From: Geothrix sp. 21YS21S-4
GTDB taxonomy: Bacteria; Acidobacteriota; Holophagae; Holophagales; Holophagaceae
Reading direction: 5' to 3'
NCBI RefSeq assembly: GCF_030845995.1
Contig: NZ_CP132719.1
Location: 2,356,001-2,420,000, forward strand
Length of the DNA: 64,000 bases
Below, piece after piece: positions 2 through 26,618 of this stretch. The first letter of the stretch is position 1; each line of letters starts with the position of its first letter. Below the pieces are notes generated by a model. That model saw nothing but the letters and a program-made list of their open reading frames with translations. It had not been told where the DNA came from and searched no databases. Made by a program: the position numbers and the translations under genes.

Positions 2-1498
2 CTGGCGGCGGTGCGCGACGGGCGCATCCAGTTCACGCCCGAGCACCACGTCGCCGTGTGGGAGCACTGGCTGACCAACATCCAGGACTGGTGCATCAGC
101 CGCCAGCTGGTGTGGGGCCACCGCATCCCCGCGTGGACCTGCGGCGCCTGCGGCACGCTCCACGTGGAGCTGGAGGCCCCCGCGGCCTGCGCCTGCGGAT
201 CCAAGAATCTCATCCAGGATCCGGACACGCTGGACACCTGGTTCTCGTCGGCGCTGTGGCCGTTCAGCGTGTTCGGCTGGCCGGACGAGACGCCGGACCT
301 GAAGCGCTACTACCCCACCAGCGTGCTGATCACCGGCTACGACATCCTGTTCTTCTGGGTGGCGCGCATGGCCATGGCCGGCCTCACCTGGATGGGCGAG
401 GTGCCTTTCCGCAAGGTCTACTTCAACAGCCTGGTGCGCGACGCCAGCGGCCAGAAGATGAGCAAGACCAAGGGCAACGTCATCGATCCGCTGGAGGTGA
501 TGGAGGAGTACGGCACCGACGCCCTGCGCTTCGCCCTGTCCATCATGGCGGCGCCGGGAACCGACATCGCCATGAGCCCCGCGCGGCTCGAAGCCAGCCG
601 CAACTTCTGCAACAAGCTGTGGAACGCCTCGCGGTTCGTCCAGATGAACCTGGACGATTCGATCACGCTGGCGACGGAGCCGGAATTCGGCGAAGCCGAG
701 TTCTGGATGGTGGGCCGCCTGCGGGACGAACTCACGGCGATCACCGAATCGCTCGAAGCCTTCCGGTTCCACGACGCCGCGGAACGGCTGTACCACCTGG
801 TCTACGACGACTTCTGCGCCACCTACATCGAGCTGGCCAAGGTGCAGCTCCAGAACGGGACCGCCGCCCAGAAGGCCGCCATCCTGCGCTTCCTGGACAT
901 CCTGCTGCGCGCCCTGCACCCCTTCGTGCCGTTCCTCACGGAAGAGATCCACGAGGCGGTGATCGCCCCCCGCCTGCCGACCGCGGAACCGACCCTGCTC
1001 ACGCTGAGAAGCTGGCCCATGGATGAGCCGCTCCTCCGCACCCAAGGCGGCAAGCCAGCGCTTATCCCCCGCTTCCAGGAAGTGCTCTCCGCGTTCCTGC
1101 GCCTCAAGGCGGAACAGGGCGTGGATCCGGCCAAGCGGGTGGCGGCCTTCTGTTCCCTGGCGGAACTGGAGCCCTTCGCCGAGGCCCTCAAATCCATCGC
1201 GCGGCTCGAATCCGTGACCTTCACCCAGGCGGACCTGGCCTCGCCCACCCGCGCCGTGGCCGTGGTGGCGGGCGGGACCGTGGCTCTGGAACTGGCGGGC
1301 CTCAAGGACCCGGCGGCGGAGAAGGCCAAGCTGGAGAAGGAACTGGCCAAGCTGGAGAAGGAACTGGAACCCCTCCGTGGGCGCCTGGCGGACGACAGTT
1401 TCGTCACCAAGGCTCCGGAAGCGGCCGTCGCGAAACTGCGCGCCCAGGCCGAGGAAAAGGAGCGGCGGCTGGCCCAGGTGAAGGCTCTCCTGGGCTGA
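2..1498 (+). CDS. valS: Valyl-tRNA synthetase, C-terminal part (5' end outside window)
   Basis: Class Ia aminoacyl-tRNA synthetase that charges tRNA-Val in the cytoplasm. Only the last 498 residues are present; the open frame runs off the left edge, so the HIGH half is missing. The fragment shows a four-Cys zinc-ribbon-like insert (C47, C50, C63, C65 of the fragment), the KMSK catalytic loop at fragment residues 152-155 (nucleotides 455-466), the helical anticodon-binding domain, and a Lys/Glu/Leu-rich coiled-coil tail from about residue 440, which is the hallmark C-terminal arm of ValRS. The order of motifs and the tail distinguish it from IleRS and LeuRS. A tRNA-Val(GAC) gene lies in the same window at 16.1 kb. 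Confidence 0.96.
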
Positions 1499-16120: not shown

Positions 16121-16560
<440 letters not shown>

Positions 16561-16659: not shown

Positions 16660-19269
16660 CTACAAACTCATCCGCGTGACGCTGGGCTTGAGGGTCTCTT
16701 CGATGGAGGCCAGGCATTCGGCGAAATGGGCCTTGGTTTCCTTGCTGTAGCCCGGCTTGGTCCCGGCGGTGCGGAGCCGGGCCGCCAGGGTTTTGAGGCC
16801 TTCCCGACTCAGGGCGCGGGCGTCCTCGGGGGTGGCTGGATTCGCGCGCAGCACCAGCCCGACCAGGTTCCGGAGGTGTTCCTTCTGGAGGTTCCGGCGC
16901 AGGGCGGGCGCCTCCTTGCCGGTCTTCAGCTCGCTCCAGATGGCGCTCTGCAGGGCCTCGAAGAGTTCGGACAACCGGAAGGCAGCCTTGGGATCGGCCA
17001 TCTTGTCCGTGGCGTCGAGGATCCGGGTGGCCACGCCGGGCTGCATGAGCTGGGTCAGGACCATCCGCTGGAGCCCCAGGAGGCGGGTGCTGAGAGAGAA
17101 GTCGGGATTGAAGCCCCGCTCGAACTGATTGACCGTGAGGCGCGCCATGAACTCCGGCCGGAATGCGAACGCGTCCGCACTGAAGAGACCCACCTCCAGC
17201 AGCTTCACGGCCTCGCGCTGGCGCTCGGCGGACACGGGCGTGAACGGCGCGCGGGGGCTGCCGGCGTGATCGCGGAGATGGACGACACCGCCCACGTACT
17301 TCGCGGTGAGGTTGGCCGCAAGACCCACCTGGCCCAGTCCGCCCTCGAAGGTGCGCCGCAGAACGGCGTAGCTCTCGTCATCCTTCAGCCGCTTGTCCTG
17401 CAGGCGGTCCCACAGCTCGCGGCTGAGCTGGAGGCGCTTCTTGTAGAAGCCCAGGGGATCGGCCCCCAGATCGCGACGGTTCACCTCCGGATCCATCCCA
17501 TCTATTCCCGAGTAGCCCGCCTCCTCGTCCGTGCCGTAGGCCAGCCGGGGCTCGGTGTGGCTGCGAGCGGCGATCTTCGCCAGCTCTGCTTTCTCGGATG
17601 AGGCTTCCAGGGGCTTGTAGGCGTACTCGATGGCCCAGAAGTCGTAGGGGCCGAGGGTGCTCATGACGTACTCGCCCTGCTTCTCGCCCTTCGCCGCGAT
17701 GTTGAGGGCGTTGTAGTCCATCACCGACCCCGTGAGGCCGTTGGCCTTCGTGAAGGCCGCGTCCTGGAGCTGGGCGTTGGCGTAGATGGTCGACGCGCGG
17801 AAGTTGTGGCGCAGGCCCAGGGTGTGGCCCACCTCGTGGGTGATCACGTCCTTCAGCACCGCCATCACGTAGGCGTCGGCCTCGGGGCTGTCGGGCTCCA
17901 GGTCGCCACGGGCCTCCAGCAGATCCATGGCGAAGCCCATCTCCTGGCTGGCTTCGGCCTCATAGGCGCAGGCGTGGACGGCATCCTTCGCCATCGGCCG
18001 CGGCAGCTCCTCCACCACTGTGCGGCGGGGATTGCGGGTCCAGATCTCGCCCACGCCGATGTCGGCGTCCAGGATCTCGCCGGTGCGGGGATCCACGTGG
18101 CTGGGGCCAATGGCGAACCCGATGTCCGTGCCCACCAGCCACCGCACGGAGGCGTGGCGGGTGTCGTGGGTGTCCCACTCGGCGTCGGCGGGCTGGACCT
18201 TCACCTGCACCGCGTCCTTGAATCCGATCTTCTCGAAGGCCCTGTTCCATTCGAGGATCCCGGCGGTGACGGCGGGCCGGTATTTCTCGGGCATGTTGCG
18301 GTCCAGCCAGTAGACGATGGGCTGCTTGGGCTCGCTGAGCGCCGCGGCGGGATCCTGCTTCTCCAGGCGCCAGCGGTTGACGAAGCGCACCTTGGGATCG
18401 GGGTTCAGGTCGTGGGTAAAGTCCCAGTGGGTGGTGGTGAAGTAGCCCACCCGCTCGTCCGCGGCACGCGGCTGCATGGGCTCGGGCAGCTTGGAAAGAC
18501 TGTAGTGGTAGCCTAGGAAGAGGCTGCGCACGTCCTCCAGCGTCCCGGGCAGGGGAGTGAACGGCATGGGCGGCGCGCCCGGCAGGGACACCGGAGGGAG
18601 GATCAGCTTCGCCAGCGCGAAGTGGGCGCTGACGCTGAACGTGTCCATGTCCGCCGTGGCCCGCACCTTGGCGAAGCTGCTGTTGGCCCTGTCGAGGGCG
18701 TAGGGCTGCCGATAGATGAGTTCCAATTGGGTGGCGGCCATGGGAATGTCCGCCAGGAAGAGCGCGTTGGCCTCCACCAGGAAGCTCTTCCGGTCGGGGT
18801 GCGGCTGGCTGAGCACCGGCGCGAAGCCCAGGAGGCTGTCGGAGAAGCCCTCCTTCACCGCCCGCGCGATGGGCGTGCCCTCCTTGGCCGTGAAATCCAG
18901 GTTCTTGGCCAGCATCTGCAAGGTGTTGCCGATGCGCTTGAACTGCACCACATGGGTGCGGTCCATCATTCCCCCGTAGAGCCCGCGCTCGCCCACCCCC
19001 TGCGTGGTGCTCACCGCCAGGAAGAAGGGCTTATCCAACTGCTCGGGCTTCAGCTCGATCCAGACCTTGTCGTCCTTCTGCCACAGCGGGAAGAGGCCGG
19101 GCAGCTCCTTGGCTTCCTTCACCACGTCGGAGAAGGGCTTCAACCCACCGGGTATCGGGAGGACGGGAGCGGGATGCTCCTGGGGCCGCGTCGCGGGCGC
19201 GGGAGTCTGGGCCACCAAGGCCAACGGCAGGGCCGCCAGAACGACGGATCGCAGGCAACGGGAAGTCAT
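16660..19269 (-). CDS. Exported zinc metalloprotease, DUF5117/DUF4953 type
   Basis: An 869-residue secreted or periplasmic protein. The ATG at 19269 is chosen because GGAGG lies five bases upstream and it opens a signal peptide (SVVLAALPLALVAQ, residues 8-21). The zinc site is a full metzincin consensus HExxHxxGxxH: H478, E479, H482, G485 and H488, followed about 40 residues later by a SVMDYNA Met-turn-like segment. The N-terminal 350 residues and the C-terminal helical region match the large DUF5117/DUF4953 proteins common in Bacteroidota and Acidobacteriota, whose substrates are largely unknown. It ends at a bidirectional terminator; the upstream gene on the other strand is the RCC1 lipoprotein. 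Confidence 0.87.
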   Translation of the reverse strand: MTSRCLRSVVLAALPLALVAQTPAPATRPQEHPAPVLPIPGGLKPFSDVVKEAKELPGLFPLWQKDDKVWIELKPEQLDKPFFLAVSTTQGVGERGLYGGMMDRTHVVQFKRIGNTLQMLAKNLDFTAKEGTPIARAVKEGFSDSLLGFAPVLSQPHPDRKSFLVEANALFLADIPMAATQLELIYRQPYALDRANSSFAKVRATADMDTFSVSAHFALAKLILPPVSLPGAPPMPFTPLPGTLEDVRSLFLGYHYSLSKLPEPMQPRAADERVGYFTTTHWDFTHDLNPDPKVRFVNRWRLEKQDPAAALSEPKQPIVYWLDRNMPEKYRPAVTAGILEWNRAFEKIGFKDAVQVKVQPADAEWDTHDTRHASVRWLVGTDIGFAIGPSHVDPRTGEILDADIGVGEIWTRNPRRTVVEELPRPMAKDAVHACAYEAEASQEMGFAMDLLEARGDLEPDSPEADAYVMAVLKDVITHEVGHTLGLRHNFRASTIYANAQLQDAAFTKANGLTGSVMDYNALNIAAKGEKQGEYVMSTLGPYDFWAIEYAYKPLEASSEKAELAKIAARSHTEPRLAYGTDEEAGYSGIDGMDPEVNRRDLGADPLGFYKKRLQLSRELWDRLQDKRLKDDESYAVLRRTFEGGLGQVGLAANLTAKYVGGVVHLRDHAGSPRAPFTPVSAERQREAVKLLEVGLFSADAFAFRPEFMARLTVNQFERGFNPDFSLSTRLLGLQRMVLTQLMQPGVATRILDATDKMADPKAAFRLSELFEALQSAIWSELKTGKEAPALRRNLQKEHLRNLVGLVLRANPATPEDARALSREGLKTLAARLRTAGTKPGYSKETKAHFAECLASIEETLKPSVTRMSL

Positions 19270-19472
19270 GAGAGCCTCCGAAAAGCATGAGCAAGGACGG
19301 GCCATCCTATCGCGTTACGAGGTCCGCAGCACCACCTCGCAAAAGGGTGTTAGTTATAGCCCAAAATCATTCAATGCACCATTTGGATAAAGTGATATTC
19401 TTCACTCATTCCGTAGATCACGCTTCGATCATCTTCGAGTTCCTTTACATCGATCCTCCCTTGGAGCCGGCT

Positions 19473-22400
19473 GTGAAATCGTTGTTCGCTCTCAGAAAAG
19501 ACGCCCGCTTTCTTGCCTTCGGGTTGGCATTCGGGCTCCTCTCCTGCGGAGGAGGCGGAGGGACGGGCCCTACTCCCATTCTGGATCCCGCCATTTCCAA
19601 TTTCAGCGCAGCCAAACCCCTCATTACCAAAGGTACAAGTACCACCCTTACCGCCAGCTTCAGTCAGGGGACGGGCTCGATCACTCCCGGGGTTGGTCCT
19701 GTTAGCAGCGGCTCCGCCGTCGGAATCCATCCCACGGCGGATACGACCTATACCCTGACGGTCACCAATAGCGCCTCCAAAACCGTCACCGCCACTTGCC
19801 TGGTCTCCGTTGTAGATCCTCCCATCGAGCCCACCGTCACCGCGCCTGCGCTGGTCGCGGCCAATGGAACTGGCTATGCGGCTTCAATTCCTGCTCAAGC
19901 CAACTGCATTTATGCCTGGACCATTGCAGGCGGGACCATTACCGCAGGGGCAGCGACACCTTCCATCACCTTCTCTGCCGGAGCCGGCAGCAACGTCCAG
20001 TTATCCTGTGTCGTCACGAACCAAGCAGGCACAGAGAGTTCTCCCGGCAAGGCGATTTGTGCCATCGTCGCCGAACCTTCCGCGCCGCTGTTGGCGGCAC
20101 CAACCCACGTGACCCTCAACCAGACCGGTTACACAGCTTCCATTCCTCCACAGGCTAACTCGACGTATGCCTGGACCATCGCCGGCGGGACAATCATTAC
20201 GGGCGCGACGAGCCCTTCTATCACATTCACCGCAGGAAATAACGGGAGCCTTCAGCTCACCTGCACTGTGACGAACCTGGCCGGCAGCGCCACCAGTGCC
20301 GCCACCTGCCTTGTCGTCCCCCCACCCACCACTCCTTCCATCGCAGCACCGTCCTTCGTTACGGCCAATCAATCGGGGTACGCGGCTTCCACATCGGCGC
20401 AGGCGGGATGCACTTACGCCTGGAGCATCACCGGCGGAACCCTTACATCAGCGTCCACGGCGCCCTCCGTCATCTTCACACCGGGAAACACTGGAATGCT
20501 CCAGCTCTCCTGCGTCGTCATCAATCAGGCTGGAACTCGGAGCGCAAGCGGAACGACCATCTGTACCACCGTCCCCGAACCCGTGGCACCTGCGATGACA
20601 GCCCCCGCCTATGTGACCGCTGGGCAAACAGGATATGCAGCATCCATTTCGCCCCAAAACGGCTGTACGTATGCTTGGACGATCAGCGGAGGCACCCTCA
20701 CGTCCGATCCTTCCGCATCCACCATCACCTTTACCGGGGGAACCGCCCAGAGCCTCCAGCTTTCCTGTACCGCCACCAACCAAGCCGGAACGAGCAACAG
20801 GACAAATCGGGTTTGCACCATCGTGATTCCGCCCTCGATCGACACCTTCGCCGCCAGTGCAAGCCTCATTACCGCAGGCCGAGGTACCATCCTCTCTTCC
20901 GTCTTCCAGGACGGAATTGGAAACATCGATCAGGGCGTGGGAAATGCAATCAGTGGCGGCACTCTCAATGTAGCTCCCGGTTCCGATACCACCTATACCC
21001 TGACTGTCACCAATGCTGCAGGGACCTCGGTCCAGCGCTCCCTATCGGTTGGAGTGGTTCCCGCTCCCACCATCACCAGCTTTGCACCCAGCTCCCGATG
21101 GCTCGTGAATCGACGGCAGACGGCCGTGCTGACGGCTGTATTCAGCCATGGGACGGGCACCGTCGATCAAGGCATCGGGTCCGTCTCCAGCGGCGTGGCT
21201 TCCCCTGCAGTAGGTCCTTTGACCAGCCCCGTCACCTACACCCTCACCGTGACGAATTCGGCCGGGGATTCCATCTCAAAAACCACGAGGATCTACGGTC
21301 CAAGCCCTGTCGTGGCCGGATCCATGTCCGATTTCACCCTTTCGCTCAAAGAAGATGGTACGGTCTGGGCTTGGGGCTACAACAGAGCCGGCCAGTTGGG
21401 AGATGGATCCGTTGTGGATCGCTCTTTACCCACTCCCGTGGTGAATCTGACAGGCGTGGTAGCGCTAGGGGTGGGCCAGGCTCACGGTCTGGCGCTCAAA
21501 GCTGACGGGACCGTATGGAGCTGGGGGATCAATAGTAACGGGCAGTTGGGGAATGGAACCACTGTCGACTCTGCTGAACCTGTTCACGTATATGGGCTAA
21601 CCGATGTGGTGGCCATCGCCGGCGGAGGATTCCATAGCCTCGCCTTGAAGTCCGACGGCACCGTCTGGGCGTGGGGATCCAACAGCTATGGCCAATTGGC
21701 GGACACACCATCTTCCCAGCAAAGAAATAATCCTATCCCCGTGATGGGGCTAACTGATGTGGTGGCCATCGCCGGCGGGGGATTCCATAGCCTCGCCTTG
21801 AAGTCCGACGGTACCGTCTGGGCTTGGGGAGCGAACAGCCAGGGTCAATTGGGAGATGGCACAACCATTGATCGATCCATCCCGGTAAAGGTGGGAAATC
21901 TCTCGGGAGGAAGCGTTCTCGCAGCGGGTTCTACCCATAGCCTAGCCTTGACCTCCGATGGAACGCTTTGGGGGTGGGGCTCCAATGGAAATGGTGAACT
22001 CGGCGATGGAACATGGCTCAATCACACCGTCCCAGTCCCGATGCATTCCATTTCCGATGTCGTGGCGATGAGTGCAGGCCCCTCTTACAGCATTGCCTTG
22101 ACTTCCGATGGAACACCCTGGACCTGGGGAAACAACTGGTACGGTCAGTTGGGGGATGGAACGGCCACTCCCCGAAACGCTCCACAACGTGTGACGGGTT
22201 TGACTGATGCGATGGCAGTTGCCAGCGGACAAAACTACTGCATCGCTGTGAAAACGGACCGGACGCTTTGGGGCTGGGGATGGGACGCCTACGGACAGAC
22301 AGGTCAGGGCGCCACAGTGGAAAGCCTCACGCCCCAACAGGTGAACCTTACCGACGTCACAAAGGTGGTTGCCGGGGCGTACCAAGCCACAGCGTGGAAG

Positions 22401-23417
22401 ACTGATGGCAGCGTCTGGACTTGGGGATACAGTGGCATCGGGGCGCTGGGCGATGGCAACGCATCCGGGCGAAGTCAAAGCTTACCCAACCTCGCAAGCT
22501 TTCTGGTGGGCATCACAGACCGTGGGGACGGGGAGTTGCACAGTCTCGCCCTACAACCGAATGGAACGGTTTGGACGTGGGGAATGAATGACATGGGCCA
22601 GTTGGGCGATGGGACGACCATCACCCGCCCTACGCCCTTGCCTGTCACTGGCCTGACGGACGTTGTTCAGGTAGCGGGATGCGGTTATCACAGTTTGGCC
22701 CGGAAGAGCGATGGCACGGTATGGTCCTGGGGCTATAACGCATTTGGACAAGCGGGCAAGGGATCTATTTCTACTCTGAGCGACCCAGGTCCCATCAACG
22801 GATTGACAAACGTCATTTTGATCGGTGGAGGGGCTTATCACAGTTTTGCTTTGAGATCCGATGGTACCGTTTGGATGTGGGGTGCCAATGACGCAGGTCA
22901 ATTAGGAGACGGAACAATGGTCGACCGCCCTACGCCCCAACAAGTCCCTGGGCTAAGTGGCGTTATAGCTGTGGCCGGAGGTTATTACCATACGCTGGCT
23001 CTGAAGTCCGATGGCACAGTCTGGGGGTGGGGTTTGAATCGATATGGGGAAGTGGGGGATGGAACCGCGATTCGCCGCCTTAGCCCGGTACAAGTAAGTG
23101 GCCTAAGTGGGGTAGTGGCATTGGTGGGAGGCCGCCAACATAGCCTCGCTCTGAAGGCTGACGGCACAGTCTGGACGTGGGGTAACAATGAGAGCGGTCA
23201 ATTGGGCGATGGAACAGCTACAAACCGACTCGTTCCTGTCCAGGTGGTGAGTCTTGCTGGAGTATCGACCCTTTCCGCAGGGCTGGACTTCACGTTGGCC
23301 GTGAAAGGAGACCACACCCTTTGGGCTTGGGGTCGAGATCACGATGGAATTCTGGGGAATGGCCGTCCGTTGTTCATCCTTGCTCCGCGTCGGGTGGCTG
23401 GTTTCGAAATTCCCTAG
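19473..23417 (+). CDS. Giant lipoprotein: Ig-like modules plus 14 RCC1 repeats
   Basis: A 1314-residue predicted surface lipoprotein. The GTG at 19473 follows GGAG at six-base spacing and opens a short signal peptide ending LLSC, then a run of glycines; the longer frame has no ribosome site. Residues from about 45 to 610 hold repeated Ig/PKD-like modules (TYTLTVTN and YAWTI.GGT signatures). The remainder has 14 RCC1 units (pattern VWAWG.N..GQLGDG), enough for two seven-bladed propellers. The gene is visibly richer in A/T than its neighbours, which suggests transfer or relaxed composition. Two adjacent units are almost identical in DNA (21594-21677 and 21747-21830). Such proteins are usually adhesive or ligand-binding; no enzyme motif is seen. 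Confidence 0.85.
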
Positions 23418-23531: not shown

Positions 23532-26500
23532 TCAGAACTGGAACCCCGCCGAGATCAGCAGGCTCTTCAATTGGGTGTCGCGCTCTTCCTCGGTGCGCGG
23601 GCGGCCCATGATGCGCTTCCAGTCGGCGGCGTACTCGACTTTAAGGGGGAAGCCCAATTTGAAGATCAAGCCCACGCCCAGGGTGGTGCGCAGGGCCGGA
23701 AAAGAGGCGGGAATCCGCTTCGTGGGGTCCGCCGGATCCTCTTCGGAGAGCAGGCTGCGGTAGACCTGGCCGGAATCCGCGAACACTTCGGCCCAGACGC
23801 TCTGGCCGATCAGCGGGAACCGGTATTCCAGATTGAGGACAGCGAGCGCCTGTCCGCCCAAGGGAATGGTCTGGACGGTGGTCTGCTCGCCAGGGGGTTT
23901 GGTCGTATCCGTGGTGGTCACCTTGCCGCGGGTTCCGAGCATGTCGGGTTCCACGCCTCGCACCGTGAAGGGCCCGCCCCCGAAGAACCGCTCGGAGAGG
24001 GGAAGGTCCTTGGCCGAACCCGCCGTGGGACGGGCGAGCCCCACGCGAACGCTCGCCATCACCACACCGTGCTCCGCCTGGAAGCCCACGGGCCAGTTCC
24101 ACTGGTGGCGCATGTCGAGCTTCACGAAGCTGCTGTTGGGCGAAGTTCCGAACACCTGGTTCGCGAACTCCAGCCGGCCGAGGAAGAAGGTGCCCTGCGT
24201 GGGATCGTAGGGCTTGTCCCGCCGATCCACGGTGACCTGCAGGTAGGGCGCGGAGATGATGCTGCGGGCCGGCGTGCGGGCCAGCAGGAAGAGATCCTGG
24301 TCCGCGATCAGGGGCTTTCCCTGGCTATCCCGATTGGACGCCACCTCCACCCGCTCAAACCGATAGCCGAGCTGCACCACCTGCTCCGAGGACAGCTTCC
24401 ACTCCAGGCTGGGCGTGAACCGGCGGCGGCGGGCGAAGAAGGCCGCCTGGGCCTCTTCGATGTAGGCCCCTTCCATGCGGAAGCGGGTGCGCGGCGCGAG
24501 CAGCGAATCCAGCGAGCCCGGCAGGAACCAGGGATCCGTGTAGCCGATGCTGTAGCTGTCCACGGACCGCTTGACGTCGCCGGTGGGGAAGGCCTTGCGG
24601 AGGGGCTTGCTGTCCAGCGTCTGGTCGCCGGCGCGGATGCCGAAGTCGACGGCCCGGCCCATGCCGCCCAGGTTGAGACGCTGCGCGTTCAAGCCGAAGT
24701 GATAGCCCTGGGTCTTGTCGTAGCCGAAGGACTCGCCGAACACCCAGGGGTTGCGCTCCTGCAGGCGGAGGGCCAAATCGCCCCGCTGCCAAGGCTCCTT
24801 CTCCTGCCCGAGCAGATCCTTCAAGGTGAGCAGGTCCACGCGGTTGAAAGCGCCCAGTCCCCCGAGTTGGATCTGGCCCTCGTCCAGCTTGGCGGGATCG
24901 AGGGGCGCGCCGGGAAGGGCCTCCGTCTCGCGGAGAACGGCCTCGGCGCGGGTGCGGTCGCTGCCCTGCACCACCAGACGGCGCGTGATGTCCAGGGGCT
25001 GAAGCGGCACCTGGACGCGGACGACGGGCTCCACCACGTCGTCGTCCAGGGCCAGCCGCACTTGGGGCGTGGCGGCGCCGAGGGAGGAGAGGCGCTGCCG
25101 CAGGTCCGCCACCACCAGCGCCAGATCATTGCGCACCAGCGGCAGGGCGGGCTTGAAGGACAGCCGCGCGCCCTCGGCGGTCAGCTCCAGCGTGCCCTCG
25201 ATTCCCTGGAGATGGCGGCGGTCGGAGCGGTAGCGGGACGTGCCGGAAATAGGGACGGGGCGCTCGCCCAGAACGAGCAGCAGGCTCTGGGCCAGCCGCT
25301 CGCGGGGAAAAGCGGGATCGGGAGGAAGCTCCAGGGTGAGGGCGTCCAGCGTGCGGCGCTGCCCCTCGCGGATGAGCAGGCGCACGTCCACGCTCCCGGC
25401 CTTGTTCGATTCCACCCGCCGCCGCACCCGCACCTCGGGGAAGCCCCGCTGGAGGTAGTGGGCGGTGACGCGGTCCTCCAGGGCCTTCACGGCCTCGGCC
25501 TTCGCGTGGGGCGGAAGGAGCAGCAAGCGCTTCGGCAGGCTCGCGGCCTCGCGCAGCTCGCTTTCCGGCAGCTCGCGGTTGCCTTCGAAACTCACGGTTC
25601 CCAGGACCCGCCGGGGGCCGCGAACCACCGTGTAGGTGATGGTGACGGCCTCGGGCCGCTCCGCGGTTCCGACCGTCACCTCGCGGACGTAGGTCACGCG
25701 GGCTTCCGGGTAGCCCTGGTCCCGGTAGTAGGCCGTGATCCGACCGGCGCCTTCGTCCAGCAGACTGGGCGCGTAGCGCTCGGCCCGGGCGAGGGGAACG
25801 AATTCCGACAGCCACGGCCGACCCAGGAACGGGCCGAAGAAGTCCATCCCCTTGGCCTTCAGCTTGACCTTGGGACCGGGCTGGATCTTGAGGACGAGGA
25901 TGCCGTCGGCGCCCTCCTGGGGGGCGAGGCTGACGGAGCCCTCCAGGCGGTCGTCCTTCACCAGCCGGTGGCGCAGCCGCCGCTGGGCGTCGCGCTGCGC
26001 GGCGGGAGTCCAGGCGGTGTGCCCCAGGGAGACGCCGGCCACCCGCAGCAGGCGCTCGCGGGTGTAGGGGGCGGGATCGCCTTCGATCCGCAGCTCCTGG
26101 ATGATGCGGGGGGTGCCGAGCACGACGGCGAGCCGCAGGCGGCGTCCGCCCTCCTCCAGCGACGCGGTGATCTTGGCGCGCCGGAACCCGGCGTCGCGGA
26201 GTTGCTGCTCGGCATCGTCCTCCAGCGTCGCCAACCGCTGGGGCCCCAGCCGCTGGCCCTTCCGCAGGTCGGGCAGCAGGGTCTTCTTCACCTTGGCGGG
26301 GATGGGATCGCCCTCCCAGCGCCATTCCGCCACCGGGGCCAGGGGCTGGAGGCGGAGGAGGACGGTGCCGCCCTCGAAGGTTCCTTCCACCGACCGGTAG
26401 CGGTCCACCAGCCGAACCGCGGCCAGGGCCCGCTGGAACCCGACCTCGTCCACCGCCTGGCCTTCCCTCAGGCCGAGGGCGGCCCGGGCGAAGCGGCGAT

Positions 26501-26618
26501 CGTTGTCGTCGCCGCCGTCGATCCGGATGGAGGTGATGATCCGCAGCGCGGCGGCTTCCTGCCCCTGGACGGACGCCAGGAGCAGGAAGCCGCAACCCAG
26601 GGCGGCGCGGACGCGCAC
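23532..26618 (-). CDS. Omp85-family outer-membrane protein with many POTRA-like domains (BamA/TamA-like)
   Basis: A 1028-residue outer-membrane assembly or translocation protein. A GTG start opens a signal peptide ending near VQGQ. About 640 residues of repeated POTRA-like modules follow (for example ITSIRIDGGDD, IQELRIEGDPAP, LGTVSFEGNRELPE, RRLVVQGSDR), clearly more than the five of BamA or three of TamA. The C-terminal half is a 16-strand-type barrel with the Omp85 motif PFTVRGVE and ends in Phe (SAGFQF), the beta-barrel insertion signal. It could be the main BamA or a TamA/secretion paralogue; the usual bamA neighbours (skp, lpxD, rseP) are absent, favouring a paralogue. The upstream STAS gene is only four bases away. 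Confidence 0.85.
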   Translation of the reverse strand: MRVRAALGCGFLLLASVQGQEAAALRIITSIRIDGGDDNDRRFARAALGLREGQAVDEVGFQRALAAVRLVDRYRSVEGTFEGGTVLLRLQPLAPVAEWRWEGDPIPAKVKKTLLPDLRKGQRLGPQRLATLEDDAEQQLRDAGFRRAKITASLEEGGRRLRLAVVLGTPRIIQELRIEGDPAPYTRERLLRVAGVSLGHTAWTPAAQRDAQRRLRHRLVKDDRLEGSVSLAPQEGADGILVLKIQPGPKVKLKAKGMDFFGPFLGRPWLSEFVPLARAERYAPSLLDEGAGRITAYYRDQGYPEARVTYVREVTVGTAERPEAVTITYTVVRGPRRVLGTVSFEGNRELPESELREAASLPKRLLLLPPHAKAEAVKALEDRVTAHYLQRGFPEVRVRRRVESNKAGSVDVRLLIREGQRRTLDALTLELPPDPAFPRERLAQSLLLVLGERPVPISGTSRYRSDRRHLQGIEGTLELTAEGARLSFKPALPLVRNDLALVVADLRQRLSSLGAATPQVRLALDDDVVEPVVRVQVPLQPLDITRRLVVQGSDRTRAEAVLRETEALPGAPLDPAKLDEGQIQLGGLGAFNRVDLLTLKDLLGQEKEPWQRGDLALRLQERNPWVFGESFGYDKTQGYHFGLNAQRLNLGGMGRAVDFGIRAGDQTLDSKPLRKAFPTGDVKRSVDSYSIGYTDPWFLPGSLDSLLAPRTRFRMEGAYIEEAQAAFFARRRRFTPSLEWKLSSEQVVQLGYRFERVEVASNRDSQGKPLIADQDLFLLARTPARSIISAPYLQVTVDRRDKPYDPTQGTFFLGRLEFANQVFGTSPNSSFVKLDMRHQWNWPVGFQAEHGVVMASVRVGLARPTAGSAKDLPLSERFFGGGPFTVRGVEPDMLGTRGKVTTTDTTKPPGEQTTVQTIPLGGQALAVLNLEYRFPLIGQSVWAEVFADSGQVYRSLLSEEDPADPTKRIPASFPALRTTLGVGLIFKLGFPLKVEYAADWKRIMGRPRTEEERDTQLKSLLISAGFQF

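Follow-up and report, generated by a model that had tools for sequence, protein, structure and literature searches.

Geothrix sp. 21YS21S-4 (Acidobacteriota; assembly GCF_030845995.1) carries a gene for a predicted lipoprotein with tandem RCC1 repeats, which we analysed in a stretch of 64,000 nucleotides of contig NZ_CP132719.1 (positions 2,356,001 to 2,420,000 of the forward strand), hereafter the window, whose numbering is used throughout. The gene runs from a GTG start codon at 19473 to 23417, the last base of its stop codon, and its parts are listed below. Other genomes (G024 and the like) and loci (L136 and the like) are given by our own handles where needed.

19463..19466, + strand: GGAG, likely ribosome-binding site, six bases upstream of the GTG start (from the sequence)
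19473..23417, + strand: RCC1/Ig lipoprotein gene (lipobox, 7 Ig/PKD-like modules, 14 RCC1 units), 1314 aa counted from GTG
19473..19547, + strand: predicted signal peptide through Cys25 of the lipobox, then poly-Gly (inspection and alignment with the G024 homologue)
19587..19814, + strand: Ig-like module A1 (module division by eye)
19833..20069, + strand: Ig/PKD-like module B1, structure modelled (division by eye, identity comparison, model)
20088..20318, + strand: Ig/PKD-like module B2 (division by eye, identity comparison)
20337..20573, + strand: Ig/PKD-like module B3 (division by eye, identity comparison)
20592..20825, + strand: Ig/PKD-like module B4 (division by eye, identity comparison)
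20838..21059, + strand: Ig-like module A2 (module division by eye)
21069..21299, + strand: Ig-like module A3 (module division by eye)
21297..22346, + strand: predicted RCC1 ring 1, units 1-7 (model residues 7-356)
22347..23414, + strand: predicted RCC1 ring 2, units 8-14 (model residues 357-712)

A Pfam scan of the gene product gave 826.7 bits for PF25390 (RCC1-like domain) and 465.8 bits for PF00415, both above cut-off, the latter in 14 stretches that correspond to 14 units of about 50 residues each. The host genome is a single contig of 3,078,440 bases, in which all 13 RCC1 matches listed genome-wide fall inside this gene and the whole-genome search turned up no other RCC1 gene; RCC1 matches were found in 0 of 14 control genomes. 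AlphaFold2 was used to model residues 603-1314 with an alignment that included 31 relatives from the genome contig collection (mean predicted local distance difference test score, pLDDT, 86.9; predicted template modelling score 0.62). The model has 56 strands, counted as 28 + 28, that is, 14 blades of four. Structural comparison with Foldseek and VIA-align ranked UVR8, HERC2, RPGR and RCC1 at the top; UVR8 (6xzl) aligns to model residues 7-356 (Z 55.9, root-mean-square deviation (rmsd) 1.5, 348 aligned) and HERC2 RLD2 (7q40_C) to residues 375-710 (Z 48.6, rmsd 1.6, 334 aligned). Because of the strand count and the structural matches within each half, the head is most simply read as two consecutive rings with seven predicted blades each. 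The assignment of the strands that close each ring is uncertain, because several UVR8 and RCC1 alignment rows span ranges such as 8..712 of the head model and the block-mean pLDDT falls to 66-79 across model residues 311-420. The head model was also matched by BLIP-II (3qhy_B; Z 29.1, rmsd 2.2, 241 aligned, 38% identity), which is described as a secreted bacterial binder in PMC9218822. Hence one may ask if the head acts as BLIP-II does on class A beta-lactamases, by binding some enzyme tightly and thereby inhibiting or sequestering it, though from the cell envelope and not as a secreted protein. We consider this quite improbable, as the match reflects a common fold and lies well under those of the eukaryotic RCC1 domains (Z about 56 for UVR8), and no target gene for such inhibition was identified nearby.

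The seven Ig/PKD-like modules that precede the head are of two types in the order A-B-B-B-B-A-A (three A and four B, counted by eye). In the Pfam scan PKD_6 passed its cut-off of 25 with 35.5 bits, and the other B modules have 53-57% identity to B1. When B1 was modelled with B2-B4, the sole confident model of five (81.8) was an Ig-like sandwich, whose best match in a second look was intimin (1f00; Z 8.1, rmsd 2.4, 75 aligned). The stalk is therefore predicted to be an array of tandem Ig-like sandwich modules, its Ig fold being moderately supported. At the N-terminus a hydrophobic stretch followed by LLSC at residues 22-25 was judged by inspection to be a lipobox, with the cysteine called by the usual lipobox rule as Cys25 (codon at 19545), and the lipobox is kept in the G024 homologue (...GLVSCGGGGG). 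The initial annotation, made from the letters alone, had claimed a lipobox, Ig/PKD-like modules and fourteen RCC1 units, all of which we recovered, and enough units for two seven-bladed propellers, with which the blade count of the predicted structure agrees.

The Ig part matches 30 of the 47 genus genomes at E ≤ 1e-15, the host genome included. The 28 stretches fetched contain 30 congener open reading frames (ORFs) whose match to the stalk reaches at least 100 bits; 26 of them were scanned with Pfam, the 4 cut by a contig or stretch edge being left out. Their C-terminal heads are FGE-sulfatase (7), lactonase propeller (7), Kelch (3), NHL (1) and RCC1 (1); the rest have DUF4082 (3, weak and below cut-off), fn3 (1) or no family (3). 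Across about the same 570 residues the window stalk is 59% identical to that of G024 and 52-53% to two FGE-headed proteins, from G006 and G060, whose alignment covers its residues 6-573 of 577 and so runs up to the head border. A stalk tree was built on modules A2-A3 with 27 rows, two G063 rows having been dropped as they had no match to A2-A3; 8 of its 24 inner branches were starred. On this tree the head type changes 12 times against a shuffled mean of 17.1, and 0 of 200 shuffles were as low. Heads have changed several times, yet they were mostly inherited together with the stalk. It may also be noted that the host genome has two very large genes (L188 6428-13324 and L189 830-7993) with RHS repeats and a PKD domain by Pfam.

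A full-length homologue of the window gene was found in 1 of the 46 other genus genomes (several of which are incomplete), namely G024, with 58% identity over residues 7-1314. Comparison of the two proteins over the 14 units gives 93-100% identity at the W, W and G of the WxWG motif and at the G nine residues past the anchor, against 14-21% at the loop positions +5, +18, +21 and +26. The same-numbered G024 unit is the best match for only 4 of the 14 window units (1, 3, 4 and 7), and the heads align co-linearly despite this weak unit-by-unit orthology. The possibility that ring 2 is a recent copy of ring 1 was also considered, and the identity of unit i to unit i+7 gave no clear sign of it (mean 0.51 against 0.44 for all pairs in the window protein, 0.50 against 0.50 in G024, from rounded values). 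Between RCC1 units 3 and 4 (window 21579-21852) 121 bases align at 87% DNA identity, which makes a local conversion or duplication likely, and a recent one.

Looking beyond the two full-length proteins, RCC1 is present in 16 of the 47 genus genomes and in 34 of the 297 phylum genomes searched. Besides the window gene and G024:C75, the RCC1 matches of the genus lie in open frames of 203-765 residues, and the ten loci examined (L146-L154 and L207) show a second, shorter type of RCC1 protein with a partly degenerate RCC1 part and a guanine-cytosine (GC) content near that of the genome. In G201, from another genus of the family, two proteins (L208 and L211) have a Cys-polyGly N-terminus and, by eye, three Ig-like modules; their RCC1 part aligns across 694 and 702 of the 712 residues of the window head at 43-44%, and what precedes their cysteines does not form a canonical lipobox. 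In the genome contig collection 261 of 264 pattern matches encode relatives, from which 79 loci from many phyla were kept. The view of the initial annotation that RCC1 repeats on a bacterial surface lipoprotein are unusual outside a few environmental lineages was therefore too strong, and published surface RCC1 proteins, as described in PMC4449606, PMC10928387, PMC12206443 and PMC4158809, also contradict it.

The genes and repeats around the lipoprotein gene are as follows.

16121..16195, + strand: tRNA-Val (gac), one edge of a variable interval
16171..16558, + strand: three copies of the tRNA-Val 3′ end with following bases (starts 16171, 16345 and 16519; 174-base spacing), resembling integration scars
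16660..19305, − strand: neighbouring DUF5117/DUF4953 met-zincin gene, inside the interval and divergent from the RCC1 gene
23532..26618, − strand: gene that we take from its sequence, and not from a family search, to be Omp85/BamA-like, other edge of the interval

The interval from tRNA-Val to Omp85 spans 7336 bases in the window and contains the DUF5117 gene and the RCC1 lipoprotein gene. Omp85 was detected in 45 other genomes of the genus, and for 21 of these the corresponding region was fetched. In 16 of these loci the stretch includes the tRNA (it lies outside the fetched stretch in the other five), and the order GlmS, tRNA-Val, Omp85 is constant in all 16. The gap between tRNA and Omp85 is 43, 48, 304, 330, 501, 777, 1071, 1189, 1529 or 2365 bp in ten of them and 4873 (G024), 5558, 5616, 10945, 11744 or 12766 bp in the other six. 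A match to the RCC1 lipoprotein occurs at just one of the 21 loci, that of G024 (L136 4009-8007), where the gene is in the same interval, inverted relative to the neighbours and with no adjacent DUF5117. In G069 the interval holds an 813-aa gene (L175 12730-15168; GC 0.62) with the look of a surface protein. In G007 (L165) the 12.8-kb gap holds a 12-kb element with a tyrosine integrase; an exact copy of the tRNA 3′ end stands at either limit, the integrase being beside the second copy. Integrases are also present in the G025 and G026 stretches, and a resolvase-type recombinase in that of G002. An intact tRNA-integrated element was considered for the window and rejected, as the 21-base tRNA end, present in three exact copies within tandem 174-base repeats, occurs on the tRNA side alone (the window has no additional copy, allowing up to three mismatches) and neither of the two genes is an integrase. 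Because all copies are on the tRNA side, we read the site as one of gene turnover with scars.

The DUF5117 protein is 80-81% identical to those of G022, G003, G069, G023 and G030 and 67-69% to eight others, whereas Omp85 ranks the same congeners oppositely (69-71% against 72-78%). This conflict suggests transfer within the genus or old paralogy of DUF5117, as judged from sequence identity. In 12 DUF5117 neighbourhoods fetched (that of G024 excluded) no GlmS, Omp85, RCC1 lipoprotein or tRNA was found. As the RCC1 lipoprotein gene adjoins the Omp85 gene in both genomes having it, and the BAM complex includes the propeller lipoprotein BamB (according to a title cited in PMC9218822), the product might be an accessory of Omp85 that aids outer-membrane assembly from the periplasmic side. 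We regard this as very improbable: Omp85 is present in 46 of the 47 genus genomes against 2 of 47 for the full-length RCC1 lipoprotein, and the orientation of the gene toward Omp85 differs between the window and G024. Omp85 of G024 is 74% identical to that of the window, against 77-78% for several congeners without the gene. G024 is thus not the closest relative by Omp85, and the distribution of the gene calls for events of loss or transfer inside the genus.

The initial annotation had also noted that the base composition of the gene differs from its neighbours, and from this suggested acquisition. The difference is borne out. GC is 0.592 in the gene against 0.672-0.703 in GlmS, DUF5117, Omp85 and FliF, and GC at third codon positions (GC3) is 0.625 against 0.903-0.930. 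At fourfold-degenerate sites GC is 0.630 (840 sites; 0.688 in the Ig part and 0.574 in the RCC1 part) against 0.947 in GlmS, 0.929 in DUF5117, 0.936 in Omp85 and 0.965 in FliF, and therefore the amino-acid make-up is not the cause of the low GC. In G024 the homologue has a GC3 of 0.678 against 0.887-0.946 in the GlmS, Omp85 and FliF of that genome. The window gene has the lowest GC3 of the 31 stalk genes of the genus (30 congener ORFs and itself), followed closely by 0.634 (L191), 0.643 (L200) and 0.678 (L136). The anomaly is real and is not peculiar to one gene.

Acquisition itself is only partly supported. In its favour are the composition and patchy occurrence of the gene and its place in a variable interval at tRNA-Val; against it stand the wide spread of the stalk family in the genus, the low-GC3 G024 homologue in the same interval, the stalk genes at 0.634 and 0.643 and RCC1 trees that establish no foreign donor. 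In the 87-row RCC1 tree the window and G024 proteins pair (100, starred) and the nearest outside rows are Bacillota. This placement, the fourfold-site GC (0.63 against 0.93-0.97) and the variable interval with its scar-like repeats would fit a recent arrival of the whole gene from another phylum. We find such an arrival unlikely. The stalk is 59% identical to that of G024 and 52-53% to the FGE-headed congener proteins, low GC3 is seen in other large stalk genes too, and the tree lacks support at 35 of its 84 inner branches. In a one-clade test on 34 rows chosen by hand from the RCC1 set, a clade of the window, G024 and two G201 proteins was not rejected and had the higher likelihood (p-AU, approximately unbiased test, 0.781). 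The RCC1 trees thus establish no foreign donor of the head, and none can be named. A foreign origin of the whole gene is weakened by the G024 homologue in the same interval and the stalk family widespread in the genus, and also by the similar Ig-RCC1 proteins in another genus of the family with a family-level clade not rejected. Alternatively, no transfer at all may be needed: in a large and repetitive surface gene with weak expression, relaxed selection on codons or a bias in repair could have lowered the GC. The two other stalk genes at 0.634 and 0.643, close to the window minimum, and two further large PKD genes of the host genome at GC3 0.77 and 0.80 would agree with this. It is a possible explanation that we nevertheless doubt, since many stalk genes of the genus hold a GC3 of 0.80-0.93 and an RCC1-headed gene of G201 has a GC of 0.70. 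Neither orthologues of the same composition in all sister genomes nor a fold other than propellers was found.

From its anatomy we somewhat favour the reading that the gene product is an outer-membrane lipoprotein that faces outward and acts as a displayed binding protein. It would be cut before Cys25 by signal peptidase II and lipidated on that cysteine; the poly-Gly tether and the seven Ig-like modules would form a stalk, probably elongated, and the tandem pair of seven-bladed RCC1 propellers would be the head. Variable loops on the propeller faces may bind a protein or glycan partner, and binding by the head could then lead to attachment or recognition, with adhesion as the presumed result. 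The reading draws on the anchor, the stalk and a double-ring head whose framework positions, unlike its loop positions, are conserved between the window and G024 proteins, and on the role of RCC1 propellers elsewhere as platforms for binding, as in PilX2 and BLIP-II. The RCC1-headed form would be old enough to be common to two diverged species; it lies in the gene-gaining and gene-losing interval beside tRNA-Val and retains its off-genome codon usage. Ran guanine nucleotide exchange by the gene product is unlikely given the predicted bacterial envelope location. More tentatively, and with the odds against us, we suggest that the Ig-array lipoproteins of the genus serve as a common base for display, to which different lineages have fitted their own binding heads (an FGE-sulfatase domain, a double RCC1 ring or a propeller of the lactonase, Kelch or NHL type). 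The RCC1 version would be kept in the tRNA-Val turnover site, so that neighbours would differ in recognition. Several points weigh against a displayed binder. Lipoproteins may face the periplasm, and we know of no outward sorting signal for this group. The loop divergence could be plain neutral drift. The remaining four B1 models scored only 35-48, and the B1 model had no Foldseek match at E ≤ 0.001. Also, free exchange of heads among stalks is rejected, as the heads follow stalk lineages. Bacterial RCC1 propellers are common and almost unstudied, RCC1 being best known from eukaryotes. A family with one kind of stalk and several heads would amount to a natural experiment in altered surface recognition by bacteria, and would provide ready-made pairs of heads for a comparison of binding.

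Taken alone, the protein is a variation on a known theme, surface RCC1 proteins being already in print; it gains some interest from the different heads on related stalks in congeners. No published account of this protein, the stalk family or its range of heads was found in the literature searched, from which subscription journals were mostly absent. With the RCC1/BLIP-II superfamily (PF00415, PF25390) the protein shares its 14 units over cut-off and the predicted four-stranded blades, the closest solved folds to the head model being UVR8, HERC2, RPGR, RCC1 and BLIP-II, and the match to BLIP-II (3qhy_B) is itself consistent with an RCC1-type propeller fold. Unlike the members of that superfamily, it has predicted tandem rings on an Ig stalk behind a lipobox. 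Honeybee bifidobacteria are described as having RCC1-repeat LPxTG surface proteins with 2-4 domains that average 7 RCC1 repeats (PMC4449606). These share surface anchoring, which is predicted for the window protein, and multiple seven-repeat domains, but as described they are Gram-positive, wall-anchored, arranged in tandem gene clusters and carry Flg_new, as opposed to one gene with a lipobox and Ig modules here. HCTKY_2170 of Hepatoplasmataceae, reported to have a seven-bladed RCC1-like propeller and four Ig-like folds (PMC10928387), likewise joins a propeller with Ig-like folds, except that it has one propeller, at the N-terminus. PilX2 of Saccharibacteria, a minor pilin with a seven-bladed RCC1 propeller, is reported to be required for T4P-2 function and is proposed as an adhesin (PMC12206443). 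There too a seven-bladed RCC1 propeller is the distal head of a surface structure, with the difference that it is a single ring borne by a type IV pilus. In Myxococcus xanthus the RCC1 protein MXAN_0889 is reported from outer-membrane vesicles (PMC4158809), and many myxobacterial RCC1 relatives have unit numbers similar to the window protein; MXAN_0889 and its relatives differ in having no close homologue of the stalk, which in the searches made matched only the group of the window protein itself. Finally, Periscope proteins, as described in PMC8201768, share an array of folded modules that would hold a binding domain away from the cell, and their modules are described as near-identical, against 53-57% identity to B1 among the B modules of the window protein.

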